A DNA stretch of 61,514 nucleotides from assembly GCA_000218705.1 (NCBI GenBank), contig GL947594.1:124845-186358 (forward strand). The letters are read 5' to 3'. This document shows positions 5,346-61,514 of this stretch, one piece after another (within the stretch, counting starts at the first letter, position 1; each line of letters starts with the position of its first letter). The notes beneath the pieces are model-generated. The model saw only the letters and a list, made by a program, of their open reading frames with translations, was not told the DNA's origin and did not search any database. This DNA comes from Prochlorococcus marinus bv. HNLC1. GTDB taxonomy: Bacteria; Cyanobacteriota; Cyanobacteriia; PCC-6307; Cyanobiaceae. Made by a program: the position numbers and the translations under genes.

Positions 5346-6221
5346 ATGGATGGATCTTTTCTAACTATCGATATAAATTCATTTATTACTGAGCCAATTG
5401 CTCATGAGTTCATGAGAAAAGCTATTTTGATTAGCATTTTAATAACTTCTGTGTGTGGTTTGCTTTCAAGCTTTTTAACTTTAAAAGGGTGGGCTCTTAT
5501 GGGAGATGCTGTATCTCATGCCGTAATGCCTGGAGTTGTTGTGGCTTATGCTTTAGGGGTTCCATTATCTATTGGAGCTTTTGTTTTTGGAGTCGGTTCT
5601 GTAGCTCTTATAGGTTTTATTAAACATAAATCAAGGATTAAAGAAGATACTGTAATAGGTTTAGTTTTTACAGGTTTCTTTGCTCTTGGGATTGTCTTAA
5701 TATCCAAAATAACAAGTGAAATTGACTTAATGCATATTTTATATGGGACACCATTAGGGATACCATTATCAGATGTAAAACAGACTATTTTTATCTCTTT
5801 TTTAGTTGTATTGCTTTTATCAATATTTAGAAAAGATTTAATGTTATATTGTTTCGATCCAAGGCATGCAAAAACTATAGGAATAAATGTTTCATTTTTA
5901 CATTATCTGTTGCTGACATGCTTGTCTTTAGCAGCAGTTGTAGGATTACAAGCAGTTGGTATCGTTTTAGTTGTTGCTATGCTCATTACTCCTGGAGCTA
6001 CAGCATATTTACTGACTGATAAATTTGATGAGTTGTCGATAATATCTGTTTTGAGTAGTATTATTTCAAGTTTAATAGGAATTTATTTAAGCTATTGGTT
6101 AGATATTGCTCCTGGTGGTTCAATAGTGTTAGTTCAAACATTTATTTTCCTCTTCGCATTTTTATTTGCTCCAAGATATGGAATCTTTAAAGTTAAACAA
6201 TTATTATCATCTTCTAAATAA
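5346..6221 (+). CDS. mntB: manganese/zinc ABC transporter, permease (ABC-3 family)
   Basis: Integral membrane permease of the metal importer. The 291-residue protein is almost entirely hydrophobic with about eight membrane segments and carries ABC-3 hallmarks such as GDAVSHAVMPGVV (about residues 53-65) and the later GIVLVVAMLITPGATAY (about 205-221). It completes the binding protein-ATPase-permease operon (16 bases after the ATPase). The next gene starts four bases after its stop, but that product is not a transporter component by sequence. Confidence 0.92.
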   Translation: MDGSFLTIDINSFITEPIAHEFMRKAILISILITSVCGLLSSFLTLKGWALMGDAVSHAVMPGVVVAYALGVPLSIGAFVFGVGSVALIGFIKHKSRIKEDTVIGLVFTGFFALGIVLISKITSEIDLMHILYGTPLGIPLSDVKQTIFISFLVVLLLSIFRKDLMLYCFDPRHAKTIGINVSFLHYLLLTCLSLAAVVGLQAVGIVLVVAMLITPGATAYLLTDKFDELSIISVLSSIISSLIGIYLSYWLDIAPGGSIVLVQTFIFLFAFLFAPRYGIFKVKQLLSSSK

Positions 6222-6224
6222 CAG

Positions 6225-7385
6225 ATGATAGAAAAAGATAAAATCTGGCCATGGTGGCCTTTATTTCCCCTTTATCCATATGGATCTAAAAAAACAATTA
6301 TTAATGAATTAATCCCTGAACAGATCTGGTCTTTAGAACAAATTCAAGGAATTTATTATGTAGCGGTTCCAGTAAGAATGACTGTAATTAAGGTTAATGA
6401 GGGTCTTATGATCCTTAATCCATTGCCGCCAACTATAGAATTGATTAATCAATTAAATGAAATAATCTTTAAACATGGTCCTATTAAGGCGATTGTTTTA
6501 CCAACAGCCTCAGGATTGGAACACAAAATAGGATTACCTCCATTGGCAAGAATTTTTAACCAAGCCGAAATATGGCTTTGTCCTGGACAATGGAGCTTTC
6601 CTATTAATTTACCTTTGGATTTTATAGGGATACCCTCTAAAAGAACAAAAATTTTATTTGAGGATGGATTACCTTTTGAGGATTGTTGTAAATGGACATC
6701 TCTTGGACCTATTAATCTAGGATTAGGTAGATTTCAGGAGATAAGTTGTTTCCATAAACCTACTGGATCTCTACATGTCACTGATGCAATAGTTGGTATT
6801 GAAAGTAATCCTCCAAAAATATTTGATTATGATCCATCTCCTCTACTATTTCATTCTAGAGAGAGAGGTGATGAGCTTTTAGTAGATTCACCCGAAAACA
6901 GAAAAAAAGGATGGGCTAGATTGGTTTTGTTCGCTTCTTATTTGAGGCCAAGTAAACTTCAGATTCCTTCTTTGAATCATGTTATTAAATATTCTTTTAA
7001 AAAAGGATTAAGAAATAAGAAATCACATTTTGGTATATATCCATTCCTCTGGGATAAGGATTGGGAAGTATCGAAAGCAGTAATTATTGGAGATAATTCT
7101 CCTAAGATACAAATTGCTCCAGTCTTACAAAGACTCATTTTCCCAAGATCAAAAGAACTTCTCTCTAATTGGTTGATGGTAGTTAAAAACTTTAAGGGCA
7201 TGAAATACTTAATATCTGCTCATTATTCATCACCCCTAGAATTTTCTGAAATAGATTGTCAAAAAATTATTGATAATATAAATTCTGATGAATGGAATAG
7301 TTTGAATGAAGATAATAAATTTCTTTATAATTTTTATGAAAGACTATATAAACTTGGAATTATTCCTGAAAATATTAATATTTAA
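6225..7385 (+). CDS. DUF4336 domain protein
   Basis: A 386-residue protein of the DUF4336 family, found in cyanobacteria and plants and related in fold to metallo-beta-lactamases; biochemical role unknown. It opens with a Trp/Pro-rich stretch (KIWPWWPLFPLYPYGSKKT), followed by VPVRMTVIKVNEGLMILNPL, and contains SGLEHKIGLPPLARIF and SLHVTDAIVGI, which resemble the strand/His-loop pattern of that fold. The canonical HxHxDH zinc motif is not obvious, so I do not claim hydrolase activity. It begins four bases after the metal permease and ends six bases before the convergent DUF760 gene. Confidence 0.8.
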   Translation: MIEKDKIWPWWPLFPLYPYGSKKTIINELIPEQIWSLEQIQGIYYVAVPVRMTVIKVNEGLMILNPLPPTIELINQLNEIIFKHGPIKAIVLPTASGLEHKIGLPPLARIFNQAEIWLCPGQWSFPINLPLDFIGIPSKRTKILFEDGLPFEDCCKWTSLGPINLGLGRFQEISCFHKPTGSLHVTDAIVGIESNPPKIFDYDPSPLLFHSRERGDELLVDSPENRKKGWARLVLFASYLRPSKLQIPSLNHVIKYSFKKGLRNKKSHFGIYPFLWDKDWEVSKAVIIGDNSPKIQIAPVLQRLIFPRSKELLSNWLMVVKNFKGMKYLISAHYSSPLEFSEIDCQKIIDNINSDEWNSLNEDNKFLYNFYERLYKLGIIPENINI

Positions 7386-47234: not shown

Positions 47235-48517
47235 CTATAAAGGTGGCAAAATGTTTGCAGGATCATAAAACTTCTTTAAAAGTTTTAAATCTTTTAATTT
47301 ATTACCAAAAGCAAGATTCATTTCTTCTTTATGAGAATGAAGATGATTATGTAGTTGCGCCATATGTATATATGGGAAAAATCTTTTTAATTTATCCCAA
47401 GATTGATTCATCCAAGTTAGTGCTAAATTCTTATCTTCGTAATTATCCTTTTCCCATGAGGCATATATCCATGGCTTCCATGAACATTCTCTATGTATAA
47501 AAAGGCTAGAAGACTTATTTTTTTTGTTTGAATTACAACCTAATTGTTGTGATGCAACATAACATGATTTATTTGGTTTTAAGAAATTAATTTCTGAAAG
47601 TGTTGCTATAAAATCTTTTACGTTATTTTTTAAATCATTACCCAATAAACTAATTACTTCAGAATGGTTATTTGAATTTAATTCAAAAAGATTTAATTCT
47701 TTCGGAAAAAATCTAACATCATTAAAACTTTTGTAGTTTCTTATTTTTAAAGATGAGTATTTTTTAAAATCGACTGTATATTTTTCAGCTAATATTTTAT
47801 CTTTTTCTGTTTTTATTTCTGCAACAATATAAATATATATCTGATCAGAGAAAATCCATTGAATACTCATGTTTGGGGGAATTCTTCTGACTTTATTATT
47901 AATTCTTCTAATTCATTTTTATTAATAAAACCCTCAAAAATTTTTATTGGGTAGGATTTAAAAGTCTTAAGACCAATTTCAGTTATTATTGTAAAAAATG
48001 GAGCTGCTCCCTTTATACCCTCCATAATTTTAAGTTCTTTTTCTTCAATTATTTTTTCTTCATTTAGTGAGAAATATTCACCATTACCAAAAAATCCTTT
48101 TACTGAAATAACACTATCAATTGCTAAACCATATCGCCTGCTTAAAGGACTTATTCCTCCTGTAAGAATATATCCTATCCCTGGAAGAGTTGATAAACCA
48201 ATTGGAAAAGTTCTATTAAATTCGTCTAAATTTTTTAATAAATCATCCATCAAAACACCTCCCCCAATATTAATAATGCCTGTTTTTTTATCGAACTTAA
48301 TTTGGTTATAGTTTTTTCTGAGATCAACAGTAATATAATTATCCTTTGCACAACCAGAAGTTGTTCCACCACTACAAATGCATAAATATTCTTTATTAGT
48401 AGAATCTTTCTTAAATTTTTCAAAAAAACTTTTGTCTATTTCGTAAACTACTTTTTTAATTTTTGCATCATTAGAATTTGAGTTTGGTACTTTAAATAAA
48501 TTTGATTTATCTATCAT
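47235..48517 (-). CDS. FAD-linked oxidase (glycolate/berberine-bridge type; frameshifted at the G-run 47875-47879)
   Basis: Flavoprotein with the FAD_binding_4 (PCMH) layout. Part one has LCICSGGTTSGCAKDNYITV, NIGGGVLMDDLLKNL and FPIGLSTLPGIGYILTGGIS, ending in a stop at 47867-47869. Part two, in the next frame, starts NMSIQWIFSDQIYIYIVAEI and ends KKFYDPANILPPL, the classic end of this family. One base is missing in the C5/G5 run, and repair gives a continuous 427-residue protein (…EEFPPNMSIQW…). Substrate unknown. It lies 30 bases from sulP on the same strand. Confidence 0.82.
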
Positions 48518-50032: not shown

Positions 50033-50278
50033 ATGGATCTAAATACTTTTGAAAAGAATGTAGAAAATACTTATTCATGCAATCCTCAATTATCTGTTTC
50101 TTTAGAAACAGAATTATCTGAAAGTCTTTATAGAAATATGAAGGATTTTGTTATCAAAAATCCTAAATGGGACCAATATCAACTTATTAATTCAGCTATA
50201 GCAACTTTTCTAGTTCAAAATGGATGTGGTGATAGTCAAGTAACAGAAATGTATTTAAATCAGCTTTTTAATCCCTAA
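50033..50278 (+). CDS. DUF2811 family protein
   Basis: An 81-residue cyanobacterial protein of the DUF2811 family, with SVSLETELSESLYRNMKDFV, NPKWDQYQLINSAIATFLVQ and YLNQLFNP visible. Role unknown. It is preceded by the long region containing the DnaA-like boxes, so it may be under cell-cycle-linked control, which is inference. Its last 24 bases overlap the tail of the convergent GMC oxidoreductase gene. Confidence 0.8.
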   Translation: MDLNTFEKNVENTYSCNPQLSVSLETELSESLYRNMKDFVIKNPKWDQYQLINSAIATFLVQNGCGDSQVTEMYLNQLFNP

Positions 50279-51892
50279 GCAAGCTCTTCTACTTAATGCC
50301 ATCATTGTTAGGGTAGGACTCTGCCAAGAAGAAGTTGGCCAGCAAGCTCCATCTAAAACGAAAACATTCTTACATCTCCAAAGTCTATTCCATTTATCTA
50401 AGACACTCTCATCTTCCTTTAAACCCATAGGTGCTCCTCCAACTTCATGTATATAGTAACCAGGAGGAGGTATATCCCCTGAAAGAGCAATAGAATTATT
50501 TTCAAGCAAATGTAAAAGTGGAATATTTAGCATAGTTTTTAAATCCTTAACTTTACCTCCCGAATAATTAATTGCTTTCACCATGGTATTTGACATATGT
50601 TTAATCATTTTGTACTCATTATCACTCCATTCAAATTCAATATTAGGGATGGGAATATCCCATTCATCTGTTTGATTAGAAAGCTTAACCCTGTTCTCTT
50701 TGCGAGGTAACACTTCGCCATGAGATATAAGAAAGCCAATAGATTCATTCTCTTCTTTTTTTAAAAAAGCAGGGATGCCTAACCTATCAATAGCACCCCA
50801 AATCCCATAGCCCCTTAAGAAGTCAATATCGTCTGGTAATTGTGTTCCGAATGGGATAAAAAAGCTACCTGCTCCTGAAAGAGGTGCTTGATTAAATGAT
50901 TTATTTGAAAAATTATCTGTACGAGGAATAGCAAAAAATTTACTTATAGAGACATGATCCATAATATATCTACCAAGTTTTCCTGAGGTATCAATAAATC
51001 CAGAATCACACGATTCTTTTTCTGAATTTAAAAGAATTCGAAGAGTTGAAATTGTAGATGCGCATAATAAGATTAATTCGCAATTTAAATCCTTTTTAAG
51101 TCCATTATTGGTATTAATTATTCTAATTGAGGTAGCCATTTCAGTTTCTTTATTTGTTTGAAACGACTCCACAAGATGATTAGGAAGTATTTGTACGTTG
51201 CCTGTTTTAAGAGCTCTTTTAAGTGAACTTCCTAAGCTTGAGGATTTTGGCCAGTCTTTCTCCTTAATAGAAGCATTTTTATCAAATCCTCTCGACTGCA
51301 CAAAGGGATAGTTTAATTTTGATTTAATTTTTTCACCAAAAATCAGCTCACTTTCGGTTAGAGGTACTTCGCCAATGTAATGCCCATTAGGAATTTGTTC
51401 TAAATTATCTTTTTTGCCAAATATTTGGGACGATTTCTCTACATAATCGTAATGAGGAGATAATTCATCATATGTGATTGGCCAGTTTGCTCCAAACCCA
51501 TCTTTATCAGCTGGTTTAAAATCGCTTGGAGAAAGTCTTAGTGTAATTCCGCCCCAAGTAAGAGATCTGCCACCAACTTGTTTTCCTTGTGTCCAGAGAA
51601 AAGGTTTATCTTTTGGATAGGTATAAGGATATTTTTTTTCATTGCCATATAGGTCTGGATTATTTTTCCAATAACCTGGATGTTGAATTTGATTTTTATG
51701 TTTTTTTGATATGAACCCACAGGCTCTTTTAAAAGTGTCAAGTGGCTCATTGGAGTAAGCTTCTTCTCTTTTTAAAAATGGTCCAGCCTCTATCATTAGA
51801 ACTTTTATTCCTTGTTCGGCTAATGTAAGAGCAGCTATTCCTCCAGTGGCACCTGTTCCGACAATTATTGCATCGTATGGATTTAAATCCAA
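50255..51892 (-). CDS. GMC-family oxidoreductase (FAD)
   Basis: Glucose-methanol-choline type flavoprotein of 545 residues. The N-terminal FAD-binding motif is DAIIVGTGATGGIAALTLAE, followed by the GMC box VGGRSLTWGGITLRLSPSDF. Also visible are RGYGIWGAI and a C-terminal VFVLDGACWPTSSWQSPTLT with the conserved HEVGGAPMGLKEDES (active-site His in YYIHEVGG). Family members oxidise sugars or alcohols; no signal peptide is visible. Exact substrate unknown. It is the first of two GMC genes in this region and lies opposite DUF2811. Confidence 0.85.
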   Translation of the reverse strand: MDLNPYDAIIVGTGATGGIAALTLAEQGIKVLMIEAGPFLKREEAYSNEPLDTFKRACGFISKKHKNQIQHPGYWKNNPDLYGNEKKYPYTYPKDKPFLWTQGKQVGGRSLTWGGITLRLSPSDFKPADKDGFGANWPITYDELSPHYDYVEKSSQIFGKKDNLEQIPNGHYIGEVPLTESELIFGEKIKSKLNYPFVQSRGFDKNASIKEKDWPKSSSLGSSLKRALKTGNVQILPNHLVESFQTNKETEMATSIRIINTNNGLKKDLNCELILLCASTISTLRILLNSEKESCDSGFIDTSGKLGRYIMDHVSISKFFAIPRTDNFSNKSFNQAPLSGAGSFFIPFGTQLPDDIDFLRGYGIWGAIDRLGIPAFLKKEENESIGFLISHGEVLPRKENRVKLSNQTDEWDIPIPNIEFEWSDNEYKMIKHMSNTMVKAINYSGGKVKDLKTMLNIPLLHLLENNSIALSGDIPPPGYYIHEVGGAPMGLKEDESVLDKWNRLWRCKNVFVLDGACWPTSSWQSPTLTMMALSRRACLGIKKLI

Positions 51893-56663: not shown

Positions 56664-58232
56664 TTAAGGTCTGCATATCAGTGGCTTTCTTACATTTTCA
56701 GCTGTAAGATAATCAGCCAGTTTAATTGAGAGAGCAATAACAGTTAAACCATGACCGATGCTTGGACAGCTTGGAAAAATACTAGCATCAGAAATATATA
56801 AATTATCAATATCATGTGATTTACAATTTTTATCGACTACTGAAATTATTGGATCATTACCCATTTTGCATGTTCCACATGCATAGCCAACAATACTCAA
56901 AGGTGCTAATCCTCTTGGATGAGCGGGAGTCCTAGTAATTGATACTGATAGAGGATTTTTTTCCATACTTTTCAGTGTGTCTAACCATCTATATACCAGT
57001 CGATCATGAGCTTCTAGATTATTATGTAGATAATTAATTTTAATTTTATTATTCTGTATAGTTACTTCGTTCTCTTCATCAGGTAATACTTCAGTCATCG
57101 CCCACCAAGAGATTGATCTCTTTGCTAAACGCTTTAATCCAAAGTCTGGGATCACTTTTGTAATTAATGATAATACAGGGGGAGATTCTGCAAAAAAGGC
57201 ATCTCTCAAAACCCCACCTCCTGTTTGTACGTGTCCTAGGGGGAAATTTACATTTTTGTCTCCAAAATAAAAATCATTTATACCTAAAGATTTTGCAAAA
57301 TATCCACTGGTAGTGCTATTAGCCCTTTGTAAGATGCAAGTCATTTGCAAATTCATTAAATTTTTTCCAACAAGTTTTGAACTATTACTCAAACCATTGG
57401 GGTGTAATGAAGATTTTGAATTTAACAGAATAATTGGGGTATTAATAGCTCCAGCTGCAAGAATTACAATGTCTGAGGAGAAGAACCAAGTATCATCACC
57501 AATTATTGCCTCAACTCCCTTAATTGATTTTCCGGATGAATTTACATCTAACTTTGAAACTTTAGCATTAGTTCTTATTCTTAAAAAATCTTGATTAGAG
57601 TCATAAATTCCATATAACTGTGCATCTCCTTTTTGAAACATAGAGCAATTTTCAAAATTTATATCTTGTGATTGATCTGGCCAACTAATAGGTAAATAAT
57701 ATGGATTACATCCCTCTTGTTTTAAAACATTTTGAATCTCTTTGAAAATCGGATCAATTGGTTTTGGGGGATTATCATATTCTAAAGAGCGAGTAGGTTC
57801 TGTTTGATCAATACCATGTTGACCTTTCACCTTATACATTTTTTCTGCAATTGAATAATATGGTTCAAGATCACCATATGAAATTGGCCAAGAGGGAGAG
57901 ACACCTTCTTGTAGTTCCAGATCTTCAAAATCTTCTGCCCTCATTCTTTGTAATACAGAACCCCAAATCTTTGTATTACCTCCAAGGGCATAAACTGTTT
58001 GAGGTGAAAATGGATCACCATCAGGACCAAGCCAATTTTCTCCTTTTGGATGATATCTAGTTTTTCTAAATAAATCTGTACCAGAAATATTTGTCTCTTC
58101 AGGTGGAAGCTGACCTCCTCTTTCAAGCAGTAGTACCCATTTCCCTTTTTTTGACAATTGATGTGCTAAGGTTGCTCCGCTTGCCCCTCCTCCAACTACT
58201 ATAAAGTCATAATGATGATCATCAATTAGCAT
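56664..58232 (-). CDS. GMC-family oxidoreductase (FAD), downstream of the oxidase operon
   Basis: Choline/glucose-dehydrogenase-like flavoprotein of 522 residues. The FAD motif is FIVVGGGASGATLAHQLSKK, then TVYALGGNTKIWGSVLQRMR, ILAAGAINTPIILLNSKSSL, and the C-terminal YACGTCKMGNDP and DASIFPSCPSIGHGLTVIAL with the active-site His of GHGLT. It oxidises an alcohol or sugar group, substrate unknown, and no signal peptide is seen. It starts 48 bases after the ctaE stop on the same strand, so it may be expressed with the terminal oxidase, to which it could pass electrons through quinone. That link is inference. Confidence 0.86.
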   Translation of the reverse strand: MLIDDHHYDFIVVGGGASGATLAHQLSKKGKWVLLLERGGQLPPEETNISGTDLFRKTRYHPKGENWLGPDGDPFSPQTVYALGGNTKIWGSVLQRMRAEDFEDLELQEGVSPSWPISYGDLEPYYSIAEKMYKVKGQHGIDQTEPTRSLEYDNPPKPIDPIFKEIQNVLKQEGCNPYYLPISWPDQSQDINFENCSMFQKGDAQLYGIYDSNQDFLRIRTNAKVSKLDVNSSGKSIKGVEAIIGDDTWFFSSDIVILAAGAINTPIILLNSKSSLHPNGLSNSSKLVGKNLMNLQMTCILQRANSTTSGYFAKSLGINDFYFGDKNVNFPLGHVQTGGGVLRDAFFAESPPVLSLITKVIPDFGLKRLAKRSISWWAMTEVLPDEENEVTIQNNKIKINYLHNNLEAHDRLVYRWLDTLKSMEKNPLSVSITRTPAHPRGLAPLSIVGYACGTCKMGNDPIISVVDKNCKSHDIDNLYISDASIFPSCPSIGHGLTVIALSIKLADYLTAENVRKPLICRP

Positions 58233-58280: not shown

Positions 58281-58877
58281 TTATTGCCACAAATAAATAA
58301 GAACAAATAAAATTATCCAAATAACGTCAACAAAATGCCAAAAAAGACTAACAGATTCAACTCCCATTTCTCCTCCTTTGTAATTATTTGGTAGAAAAGA
58401 TCTATACAACATTAATCCCATCAACAAAATACCAGTAATAACGTGAAGACCATGAAAACCTGTAAGTAAGTAAAACATACCTCCAAAGACACCGCTTTGT
58501 AAGCTAAAAGAAAGTTCAGACCATTCAATATATTGTCCATAAACAAAATAACTTCCCATCAACATAGTTATGAACCATATAAATCTAAATCCCCATAAAT
58601 TTTTTTTATGAAGAGATTTCTCTGCAAAATAAATAACAAAACTTGATGATACTAATATAACTGTATTTATTAGTGGTTCTTTTACTGCTATTCCATCAAT
58701 CCCTTCTGGATACCATACTGGTGCTGTTACTTTAAGAATTCCATAACCAACAAAAAAAGCAAAAAATATAATACTTTCTGAACATAAAAAAATTATAAAA
58801 CCAGTCATATTGTGGCCATCATGTTTAACATGACCAGGAATATGATTAATAGTTGGACTTTTATTATCTGAGAGCAT
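58281..58877 (-). CDS. ctaE: terminal oxidase subunit III
   Basis: Membrane subunit III of a heme-copper oxidase. The 198-residue protein has about five hydrophobic helices, with MTGFIIFLCSESIIFFAFFV, then LLTGFHGLHVITGILLMGLM and HFVDVIWIILFVLIYLW, the last of which holds the typical FWHFVDVIWI motif. It is the last gene of the ctaC-ctaD-ctaE operon and sits three bases after the ctaD stop. Length fits the five-helix (A2-type) subunit III. Confidence 0.93.
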   Translation of the reverse strand: MLSDNKSPTINHIPGHVKHDGHNMTGFIIFLCSESIIFFAFFVGYGILKVTAPVWYPEGIDGIAVKEPLINTVILVSSSFVIYFAEKSLHKKNLWGFRFIWFITMLMGSYFVYGQYIEWSELSFSLQSGVFGGMFYLLTGFHGLHVITGILLMGLMLYRSFLPNNYKGGEMGVESVSLFWHFVDVIWIILFVLIYLWQ

Positions 58878-58880
58878 TTT

Positions 58881-60571
58881 TTAATGTTTTTTAAAAGATT
58901 TATCTATATAAAATTGTTCATCTTGAACAAAGGGTTTATCAAGACCATAACAATAAGGTTCATTTAATACAGTTGGAATATCATCTTCAAAGTTTTCATG
59001 TGGAGGAGGTGATGGTAGAAGCCATTCTAACCCAATTGCTTTCCATGGATTTGGAGGAGCGGCTTTACCTCTTACCCAAGAGCTAACCATATTTAAAATA
59101 AAAGGTATTGATGCTACTCCAAGAATAAATGCACCAATACTGGCTATTACATTCCAAATAGCAAATTCTGGATCATAGGATGCAACTCTTCTAGGCATGC
59201 CTAACAATCCTGCCCAATGAAGAGGTAACCAATTTAAAGTAGCTCCAATAAAAGTAAGTGCGAAATGGACTTTCCCTAATCCCTCATAGAACATCCTTCC
59301 AGTAAATTTTGGGAACCAATGATAGATTCCTGCAAAAATTCCAAAAGCAATAGTATTAAAGATAATGTAATGAAAATGGGCAACAACAAAGTATGTATTC
59401 CCAACATGTATATCAACTGGAACTGTTGCAAGCATTACTCCAGTAATACCTCCAAAAATAAAATTAAATAATCCTCCTAAACAAAAGAGCATTGGTGTAC
59501 TTAATCTAAGATTCCCTCCCCATAAAGTTGCTATCCATGCAAATACTTTTACACCTGTAGGTACAGCTATGAGCATAGTAGTGAACATAAAAAGATTTCT
59601 CATCCACATAGGTGTGCCTGTATAAAACATATGGTGCACCCATACCACAAGAGAGAGTATTGTTATTCCAAATGAGGCAACCGCAACAAATTTATATCCA
59701 AAAAGTGGTTTTCTTGCATAAACGGGAAAAAGTTCTGAAAAAATCCCAAAAACTGGAAGAACCATTACATAAACAGCAGGATGTGAATAGAACCAAAAGA
59801 AGTGTTGAAATAAGACAGGATCACCACCTCCTTCAATCCTAAAAAAACTTGTTCCAAATGAAAGATCGAAGAAAAGCATAATTGCACCACCTGTGAGTGC
59901 TGGTAATCCAAGTAATTGAAGTAATTGAGCAGCTAAAACAGTCCAGATAAAAATTGGCATTTTAAAGAAACCCATACCAGGAGCCCTCATTCTTATGATT
60001 GTTGTGACAAAGTTAACAGCTCCCATTATCGAAGAAATTCCTGATAATGAAATTGCCGTAATCCAAAGCATCTCTCCGTTTATCATCTTCCCGAGTGGAT
60101 TTTGAATGCTAATTGGTGGATATGACCACCATCCTGAAGATGCAGGTCCACCTGGTACAAAGAAACTTAAAAGTAAAATTATTGAGAAAACTGGTACAAG
60201 CCAAAATGCTAATGCATTAAGTTTTGGGAAAGCCATATCAGGTGCCCCAATCATTGGAGGAACAAGTAGATTAGTCAATCCGCTTAACATGGGGAAGAGG
60301 AACAAAAATAACATTACTGTTCCATGCATCGTATAAAGGCCGTTATAAACTGTTGGATCAAATAAATCTGATGGAGGTGTTATTAATTCCCCTCTGACTA
60401 GCATGCCTAAAAGTCCACCTAGAAGTAAAAAAAATAAAGCTGTAACTATATATTGAATTCCAATTACTTTGGCGTCGGTATTAAAAGAAAAAAATCTTTT
60501 CCAATCATTTGGTCCTTTTGGATAGGGATTTTTAGATTTAACAATCTTTGATCGTAATTAATAATTGTCAT
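58881..60571 (-). CDS. ctaD: terminal oxidase subunit I (frameshifted near 60547)
   Basis: Catalytic subunit I of a heme-copper oxidase, with low-spin heme ligands in YTMHGTVMLFLFLFPML, CuB/heme ligands in FWFYSHPAVYVMVLPVFGIF and VHHMFYTGTPMWMRN, and VVAHFHYIIFNTIAFGIFAG. The YSHPAVY motif marks an A2-type oxidase (no D-channel Glu). The ATG at 60569-60571 (MTIINYDQ…) is in one frame, and NPYPKGPNDWKRFFSFNTDA with the first membrane helix is in the next; one base is missing near 60547. The repaired protein is 563 residues. Starting at 60404 instead would lose the first helix. Confidence 0.9.
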
Positions 60572-60579
60572 TGTTTTAA

Positions 60580-61514
60580 CTATCCATCATGAGGTCTATC
60601 TTCTAAACCTACATCTTGAACTTTTGGAGCAGGAGCAGGCTCAACAGTAGCCCAACCCCTATTACCATTTTTTAGCCTTTTATCGTATAAACGACCTGCA
60701 GGATTTAATCCATTTTGAGGTTCTTTTTTTACAGTCTCATTAATCCATTTATTAAATATATCCTCTGATTCAACAATTACATTAGTTTGATTTTGTGAAA
60801 AATATGCACCACTAAACATGGCATCTCTTAATCTAAACACTCCATTTCTTGTAGGTGTAAGGGAATATGTAATAACACTTCCTGGGATAATATCTTGCTT
60901 TAACCTAAATGCAGGTATGTAAAAGCTGTGAATAACATCATCAGTAATTAATCTAAAGTTTGTTCTCTTATTAATAGGGAGATGTAATTCAGAGCTATGA
61001 ATGCCGTTAGGATATATAAATTCCCAGTTCCATTGTCTTGAGATTACATCAATTGGTCCAAAATCAAAAGCCTTTTTTTCTTTAACAAAAGGAGCCTCTT
61101 GATCATAATTATATTTAGTTTTTGAACCTAAATTTTCAAGTTTATAATTTACATTTGTTGCATAGGAAGCAATTGCTAAAACTAAAATTAGAGGAATATT
61201 GTCCATATAACTTCCAATTTTACGTTACCTTCAAGAGGTTGGCCATTACTTTCATCATATTTGGGGGCTCTATTAAATATTAAAATCCAAGCCATAGTTC
61301 CAGTGCACCCTAAAAATATAAAAGTTCCAATAGTTGTCTCGAATGCAAAAAGATTATCAACATAATTTGCAGCTTCTGAAGCTTGGATAGGCAACCAACT
61401 ATAAGACCAATAGCCCATTAATAAACTTATTAAACTATTAATCCCAACAGCAGAAATTATTATAAAAATAGTTATGTATTTTCTTTTGTTAAATTTCTTT
61501 ATTTTTGTATTCAT
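60580..61514 (-). CDS. ctaC: terminal oxidase subunit II lacking CuA ligands, ARTO-type (frameshifted near 61200)
   Basis: Subunit II with two N-terminal helices (about residues 12-100) and a cupredoxin domain with QWNWEFIYPNGIHSSELHLP and DDVIHSFYIPAFRLKQDIIP. The CuA loop, which in cytochrome c oxidases reads C-x-E-L-C-G-x-x-H-G-x-M, is here FRLRDAMFSGAYFSQNQT: both Cys, the second His and the Met are gone. Such a copper-free subunit II is the mark of the cyanobacterial alternative terminal oxidase. One base is missing near 61200 (…VIWTI|IPLILVLAI…). The repaired length is 311 residues. The ATG is at the very last bases of the window, so it may be the true start or a cut point. Confidence 0.88.

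Follow-up and report, generated by a model that had tools for sequence, protein, structure and literature searches.

How does a heme-copper oxidase receive its electrons when its subunit II has lost the CuA centre? The question is raised by a stretch of 61,514 nucleotides from Prochlorococcus marinus bv. HNLC1 (hereafter the window; G000:C1:124845-186358 of a single-scaffold genome of 1.57 Mb), in which a ctaC-ctaD-ctaE cluster of a heme-copper oxidase is present on the minus strand in the order ctaC, ctaD, ctaE and a gene for a GMC-family flavoprotein. The enzyme is the cyanobacterial alternative respiratory terminal oxidase (ARTO), already known in kind and published in the Prochlorococcus lineage in 2023 (Dore et al., 2023; PMC10119275). 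In a review (PMC6616624) the lack of CuA in ARTO is stated, plastoquinol is assigned as its donor and extra subunits are left open; in another paper the details of respiratory electron transport in the plasma membrane are called debatable (PMC7796093).

The CuA ligands of this enzyme are missing, its haem and CuB ligands are conserved, the quinol site of the bo3 type is missing, and its genes are closely linked to, and almost obligately co-inherited with, an upstream pair of genes for DUF2231 membrane proteins, each of which has four invariant histidines. It is proposed here, tentatively and at a little under an even chance, that ARTO receives electrons from plastoquinol by way of these two proteins and not via CuA.

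Loss of the CuA Site in Subunit II

The comparisons rest on 40 ARTO loci, hand-picked across families from strong matches in diverse genomes, and on a second, partial copy found in the HNLC1 genome itself (L009), which brings the number to 41. In the window the subunit II gene (ctaC2) occupies 60580-61514 on the minus strand, and of the CuA ligands its product has kept the first His alone. Two minus-strand open reading frames (ORFs) are the halves of this one frameshifted gene: the N-terminal half (61188..61514; 108 residues, start codon at the window edge) is 96% identical to the intact copy L009:4851-5783, and the C-terminal half with the cupredoxin domain (60580..61206; 208 residues, in another frame, Pfam COX2 over cut-off) is 95% identical to it. 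The retained His lies in VIHSFYIP (60913..60936, minus strand) and occurs in all 41 ARTO ctaC. The former CuA loop, RLRDAMFSGAYFSQNQT (60784..60834, minus strand), has retained no Cys, His or Met ligand of CuA; it reads RLRDAMFSGAYF at 60799-60834 and RDAMFSGAYFSQNQT at 60784-60828, and the 208-residue half is devoid of Cys. A preliminary description of the window had reported the ligands as gone and the first His as kept, placing the loop at 60795-60830, close to the positions observed, and its account is borne out both by the window loop and by the intact copy. The CoxB model scores 117 bits on ctaC2, below its cut-off of 147.7, and 157.8 bits on a CuA-type ctaC of the same genome (L010, see below).

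With the ctaC and ctaD frames of the window broken and the contig stopping at a gap, the missing ligands might be put down to a gene that is frameshifted, decaying or misassembled. The ctaC of L009 is unbroken (311 codons) and shows the same ligand-free loop, and the CuA motif CxELCGxxHGxM has no match in any of the 41 ARTO ctaC examined, 40 of which carry (Y/F)R(L/I)RD in the loop (the exception is L106). An artefact is thereby ruled out, its remaining probability being negligible.

ARTO and a Separate CuA Oxidase in the Same Genome

The assignment to ARTO made in the preliminary description agrees with the CuA-less subunit II and with the subunit I tree that it had proposed, in which the 41 ARTO rows, including that of the window, lie on one side of a branch with a support of 100 in the SH-like approximate likelihood ratio test (SH-aLRT) and 37 rows of CuA-type cytochrome c oxidases (Cox) stand apart (98). 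Four further rows linked to DUF2231 genes are separate in the same tree (SH-aLRT 92); three of them are found beside a CuA-type ctaC and one (L293) is without ctaC. The tree gives no polarity of CuA loss, since the branch to the CyoB root is excessively long. The window enzyme is not different from the published ARTO or Qox (ctaC2-D2-E2; Cox3 of Anabaena), with which it shares the same subunits, a subunit II without CuA and coexistence with a CuA-containing Cox.

The latter had been anticipated as a second set elsewhere in the genome, and a search for a ctaC with the Cys pair found it about 132 kb away: the gene at G000:C1:318150-318968 (L010) adjoins ctaA and ctaB and encodes the loop CAELCGPYHGGM. 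This locus and those from 38 of the 40 genomes with selected ARTO loci make up the 39 CuA Cox loci used for comparison, 28 of which adjoin ctaA and ctaB. Two third copies of ctaC (L180, L181), first listed as Cox, proved to be CuA-less and are both accompanied by the DUF2231 pair.

Within the genus, 17 of 266 genomes (that of the window included) carry an ARTO ctaC, with 81–100% identity; MIT9201 and MIT9107 are among the named loci of the DUF2231B search described below. A cyanobacterial ARTO locus also occurs in a record titled Bifidobacterium breve (L238; CALPNT020000109.1), a metagenome-assembled genome whose title is probably wrong.

Catalytic, Magnesium and Quinol Sites of Subunit I

Subunit I was aligned in CyoB numbering (40 ARTO and 37 Cox rows; rows under 450 residues were dropped). 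In the window the ctaD2 ORF spans 58881..60404 on the minus strand from an internal ATG (COX1, 485 bits); the gene extends to about 60577, its first codons being out of frame near 60.55 kb. ARTO retains the haem and CuB ligands (His106 in the 39 of 39 rows with residues there; His284, His333, His334, His419, His421 and Tyr288 in 40 of 40). It shares them with the standard aa3 cytochrome c oxidase (CtaC1D1E1; L010), together with the K- and D-channel positions Lys362, Thr359, Asp135, Asn124 and Asn142 and with Ala in place of Glu286. The YSHPAVY motif (59769-59789, minus strand) is of the A2 type, if that type is defined, as we assume, by YSHPxVY replacing the helix VI Glu; it is also present in the CuA-containing Cox encoded in the HNLC1 genome and therefore does not separate ARTO from Cox.

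Unlike ARTO, the standard oxidase has CuA and also His and Asp at positions 411 and 412 (37/37), which we take to be the ligands of the Mg site in cytochrome c oxidases. ARTO has Gly, Ser or Asn followed by Asn (40/40), and in the window the segment HVGNTYFVVAHFHY (59367..59408, minus strand) keeps the haem ligands and carries Gly and Asn for the Mg-site His and Asp. This matched change in subunit I supports a real loss of CuA, and the aligned residues suggest that CuA and the neighbouring metal site were given up together. It also speaks against the view that cytochrome c6 or plastocyanin, as soluble carriers, would still dock on CtaC and reduce haem a without CuA: the retained cupredoxin domain favours such docking, but the loop and the Mg site have changed together and electron transfer distances are generally expected to be long without CuA, which leaves this route very improbable.

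Did a known quinol site take over instead? The oxidases bo3 (CyoABCD) and aa3-600 (QoxABCD) resemble ARTO as heme-copper oxidases with a CuA-less cupredoxin subunit II, and CyoB has Asn412 as ARTO does. The ubiquinone site of bo3 is described in PMC10256718 as the polar cluster Arg71-Asp75-His98, which is retained in QoxB of aa3-600. No equivalent of these three residues was found in the 39 ARTO rows that cover these positions (one of the 40 aligned rows has a gap), in which V/I/L/F, L/F and V/L/F/I occupy positions 71, 75 and 98 and Gly, Ala or Ser position 101; the Cox rows also lack Arg71 and Asp75 (37/37). The NCBIfam models give 414 bits for CyoB (cut-off 1020), 406 for QoxB (cut-off 1015.5) and 630 for CtaD_CoxA (cut-off 670.75), all with a query lacking the N-terminus. 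Judged from these residues, the quinol site of the bo3 family has thus not taken over. Of the label "quinol-type A2 oxidase" given in the preliminary description, the A2 part fits YSHPAVY, but "quinol-type" is left unsecured by the missing cluster and by CyoB and QoxB scores far under their cut-offs.

ARTO might nevertheless oxidise plastoquinol directly, at a new site in CtaC and CtaD, with the DUF2231 pair in a structural role similar to that of the accessory subunits CyoD or COX4. CuA-less cupredoxins are typical of quinol oxidases; searches of the PDB with CtaC return subunit II of caa3 first and QoxA of aa3-600 second, and the CtaC loop resembles that of QoxA by eye. ARTO is moreover described as accepting electrons from plastoquinol, with further subunits unclear, in the review cited above (PMC6616624). 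Against this explanation, which we consider unlikely, stand the absence of the Arg71, Asp75 and His98 equivalents and the fact that a structural role explains neither the four invariant His of each DUF2231 protein nor the link of the pair to a cbb3-like oxidase described below.

A DUF2231 Pair Encoded Upstream of ctaC

The gene order of the complete cluster is DUF2231A-DUF2231B-ctaC-ctaD-ctaE-(GMC). In the window a scaffold gap of 100 N (L008 3360-3459) starts right at the end of the stretch, and the two DUF2231 genes lie just past it, as the L009 copy shows; they were outside the view of the preliminary description. In L009, DUF2231A (6457-7017) and DUF2231B (5783-6454, directly upstream of ctaC) score 115.1 and 129.9 bits with Pfam PF09990 (cut-off 26.4). 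The pair is situated directly upstream of ctaC in 40 of the 41 ARTO loci, with DUF2231B and ctaC sharing one strand and separated by no more than 139 bp; the only locus without it, that of G025, has a 100-N gap at its ctaC start. No DUF2231 pair was found beside the 39 CuA Cox loci, and these partners set ARTO apart from bo3 and aa3-600 as well. The GMC gene is present in 35 of the 41 ARTO loci within the fetched stretch, in 34 of them less than 700 bp from ctaE.

The association extends to the genus and the class. Within the genus, PF09990 was found in 16 of the 17 ARTO genomes and in none of the others (16 of 266 in all). Among 388 genomes of the class, with DUF2231B (and not A) counted and ctaC taken at an E-value below 1e-45, a cut chosen after the results had been seen, 205 have an ARTO-like ctaC and 219 have DUF2231B: 203 have both, two ARTO only, 16 DUF2231B only and 167 neither, so that DUF2231B is found in 203/205 ARTO genomes vs. 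16/183 others. All 121 ctaC rows with a DUF2231B row in the same genome have this gene directly upstream, at a gap of 3–365 bases (median 42), in a tally drawn from 143 ctaC and 140 DUF2231B rows, a part of those listed. A pattern search with DUF2231B in named genomes gave the same arrangement: among the best 80 of 518 loci, largely from Cyanobiaceae, 79 adjoin a ctaC that lacks the CuA motif, and the remaining one runs into a contig edge. The annotation of a plasmid of Trichormus variabilis ATCC 29413 lists two DUF2231 genes, subunits II, I and III and a GMC oxidoreductase in the same order. This cluster (L319; NC_007410.1, plasmid A) is on a plasmid typed as conjugative, beside genes for a BlaI/CopY regulator and an M56 peptidase, and the cluster is followed by a cytochrome ubiquinol oxidase gene.

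DUF2231A and DUF2231B are homologous to each other (hhalign probability 98.7), and four His are invariant in each (40/40 rows of each). The models predict a four-helix bundle with the His cluster on its periplasmic (P) side, the orientation being predicted from positive-inside charges. A homologue search returned, as the best 120 of 3425 proteins, PF09990 members exclusively. Neither model had a Foldseek match at E ≤ 0.001, and profile searches against the PDB revealed no relative, one search giving no row up to E 1 and the other eight rows at E 0.26 or worse. The VIA-align rows are a mixture of four-helix proteins: COX3, designed bundles, bd oxidase and b561. DUF2231A is closest to COX3-type bundles, a resemblance that favours the structural role considered above. 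An assignment of haem b by fold was discarded, as there is no significant fold match to support it.

The cytochrome b561 and STEAP haem b reductases are similar to the pair in having membrane helices with conserved His and appear in these fold-search rows, a likeness that is not significant; haem binding by DUF2231 is putative. They give rise to a different reading, in which the pair would be an electron exit passing quinol electrons to periplasmic Fe(III) and would, in place of the oxidase, be the source of the ferric reductase activity ascribed to ARTO. In line with this, a Synechocystis ARTO mutant is reported to be impaired in iron reduction and uptake (PMC10119275 and PMC7676907). According to PMC10119275, however, that mutant lacked ctaD2 and ctaE2 and not the DUF2231 genes; since the b561/STEAP resemblance is also not significant, the exit reading is judged quite improbable.

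Other Contexts of the Pair

The 16 genomes of the class with DUF2231B but no ARTO-like ctaC under the cut contain 17 loci. Ten of these lie beside ctaC variants without the CuA motif, one of which (L269) is cut off before the loop. In one (L274/L293), from a draft genome with 8% contamination, the pair precedes ctaD with no adjoining ctaC or ctaE. In three (L271, L275, and L277) it directly follows ccoO of a cbb3-like oxidase (CcoNO), a family different from that of ARTO, and precedes an NDH-2-like flavoprotein gene; ccoN and ccoO are the best matches there but below the NCBIfam cut-offs, and NDH-2 was recognised by a PDB match. No diheme CcoP was found near the pair within the 14–18 kb stretches of these three loci, since ccoO holds the only CXXCH in reading frames of at least 60 residues. 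The pair is therefore not tied to one oxidase type. DUF2231B of the cbb3-like loci (L287, L288, and L289) bears a C-terminal extension of about 100 residues. In genus g58 the pair is kept while ctaC lies away from it in three of four genomes (G464, G474, and G495); an NDH-2 gene is beside the pair in three of the four, including two of those with a distant ctaC, and another gene takes this place in the fourth (L315).

Several cases weigh against the proposal that electrons enter ARTO through the pair. In the three remaining loci of the 17 (L272 and L273 of genus g32, L276 of g76), which are Gloeobacter-like, the pair stands beside a ctaC that keeps CuA (CTQLCGxYHGAM). A plasmid of Gloeothece verrucosa (L320; NC_014533.1) carries an orphan pair near a gene for a four-helix copper-binding protein; in the incomplete gene table of the plasmid, no gene within 6 kb is given as an oxidase. 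Two genomes have ARTO only: in G566 ctaC lies at the very start of a contig, its upstream side missing, while in G550 about 1.4 kb upstream of ctaC is present without DUF2231B and none occurs elsewhere in the draft of 550 contigs (the 3′ end of this ctaC is cut by a contig edge). The rule that the pair always means the absence of CuA is broken by the first two cases, and the rule that ARTO never occurs without the pair by G550, a real exception as far as the draft goes. Owing to the Gloeobacter-like CuA loci, the Gloeothece orphan pair and G550 the link of the pair to ARTO is not absolute, and an assembly or accessory role is possible.

As an assembly factor the pair would deliver metal or haem to subunit I and would not carry electrons. 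Four-His sites can bind metals; several oxidase types are accompanied by the pair; and the Gloeothece plasmid places it near a copper protein gene. Yet the pair is beside none of the 39 CuA Cox loci, whose CuB and haem sites require the same assembly, and the nearby genes for NDH-2 and GMC proteins speak for electron flow, which makes this role rather unlikely.

A Proposed Route of Electron Entry

If electrons do enter ARTO through the DUF2231 pair, the invariant His would bind haem b or another redox metal at the P face, and the pair would oxidise plastoquinol and deliver its electrons to the low-spin haem of CtaD. A GMC or NDH-2 flavoprotein encoded alongside may supply the reductant or load the quinone pool, giving a short chain in the plasma membrane. 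The cbb3-like context supports this electron-entry reading because the usual entry subunit for cytochrome c is missing nearby there too.

A broader and more doubtful proposal, for which we would put the chances well below even, is that the pair represents an unrecognised membrane heterodimer bearing metal or haem, through which heme-copper oxidases receive electrons from plastoquinol. The heterodimer would have made CuA dispensable in ARTO and would also serve a cbb3-like oxidase without CcoP, as a third way of feeding such enzymes besides CuA or CcoP and the bo3 quinol site; the Gloeobacter-like loci would then represent the state before CuA loss.

Two Copies of the Locus and Neighboring Genes

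The partial copy L009 (G000:C1:254686-256782) has 93.8% DNA identity to the window over 2097 bases. Both copies share ctaC-ctaD at about 94% identity and each ends at a 100-N gap. Single-base frame breaks fall at different places in the two, in ctaC and ctaD of the window (58881-61514) and in ctaD of L009 (3585-5783), as in long-read drafts. The level of identity, the gap at each end and the frame breaks in each copy suggest that the scaffolded draft contains the same locus twice, as contigs of two strains; a true duplication, with a second real ARTO operon in the genome, is not favoured. The window contig and that of G025 break at the ctaC2 start codon, no more than one base apart, with a 100-N gap after each, and in G025 a 16S rRNA gene lies beyond the gap (L074 7433-7532); such coinciding breakpoints in two assemblies are odd.

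Downstream of ctaD2, on the minus strand, are ctaE2 for subunit III (58281..58877; COX3, 120 bits) and the gene for the GMC-family oxidoreductase dependent on flavin adenine dinucleotide (56664..58232). A second GMC-family oxidoreductase of 545 residues is encoded about 5 kb from it (50255-51892). At 47235-48517 on the minus strand, two overlapping ORFs of 211 and 216 residues look like the parts of a single flavin-type oxidase gene interrupted by a frame break.

Previous Knowledge of the Upstream Genes and Significance

In PMC6616624 the cox3 (Qox) operon of Anabaena PCC 7120 is written alr2729-alr2730-coxB3-coxA3-coxC3. From this gene order we infer that alr2729 and alr2730 are the DUF2231 pair. 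Other papers call them hypothetical or putative membrane proteins or just "cox3 operon" (PMC4390870, PMC7065334, and PMC3898017). In the literature searched, from which subscription journals are mostly absent and which was partly available as excerpts, no function is proposed for either gene, DUF2231 turned up only in a cysteine database, COG4244 did not turn up, and nothing was found that combines a terminal oxidase and a GMC oxidoreductase in cyanobacteria. What the present analysis adds to the known enzyme is the linkage to the DUF2231 pair across the class, the invariant His, the occurrence of the pair beside other oxidases and the absence of a bo3-type quinol site.

ARTO is described in PMC10119275 as a mark of Prochlorococcus from iron-poor oceans. 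The question of its electron donor is now directly testable on two small membrane proteins that are co-inherited with it across the class and have eight invariant His. If the pair carries electrons, this would explain how an oxidase works without CuA and perhaps also the tie of ARTO to iron reduction.
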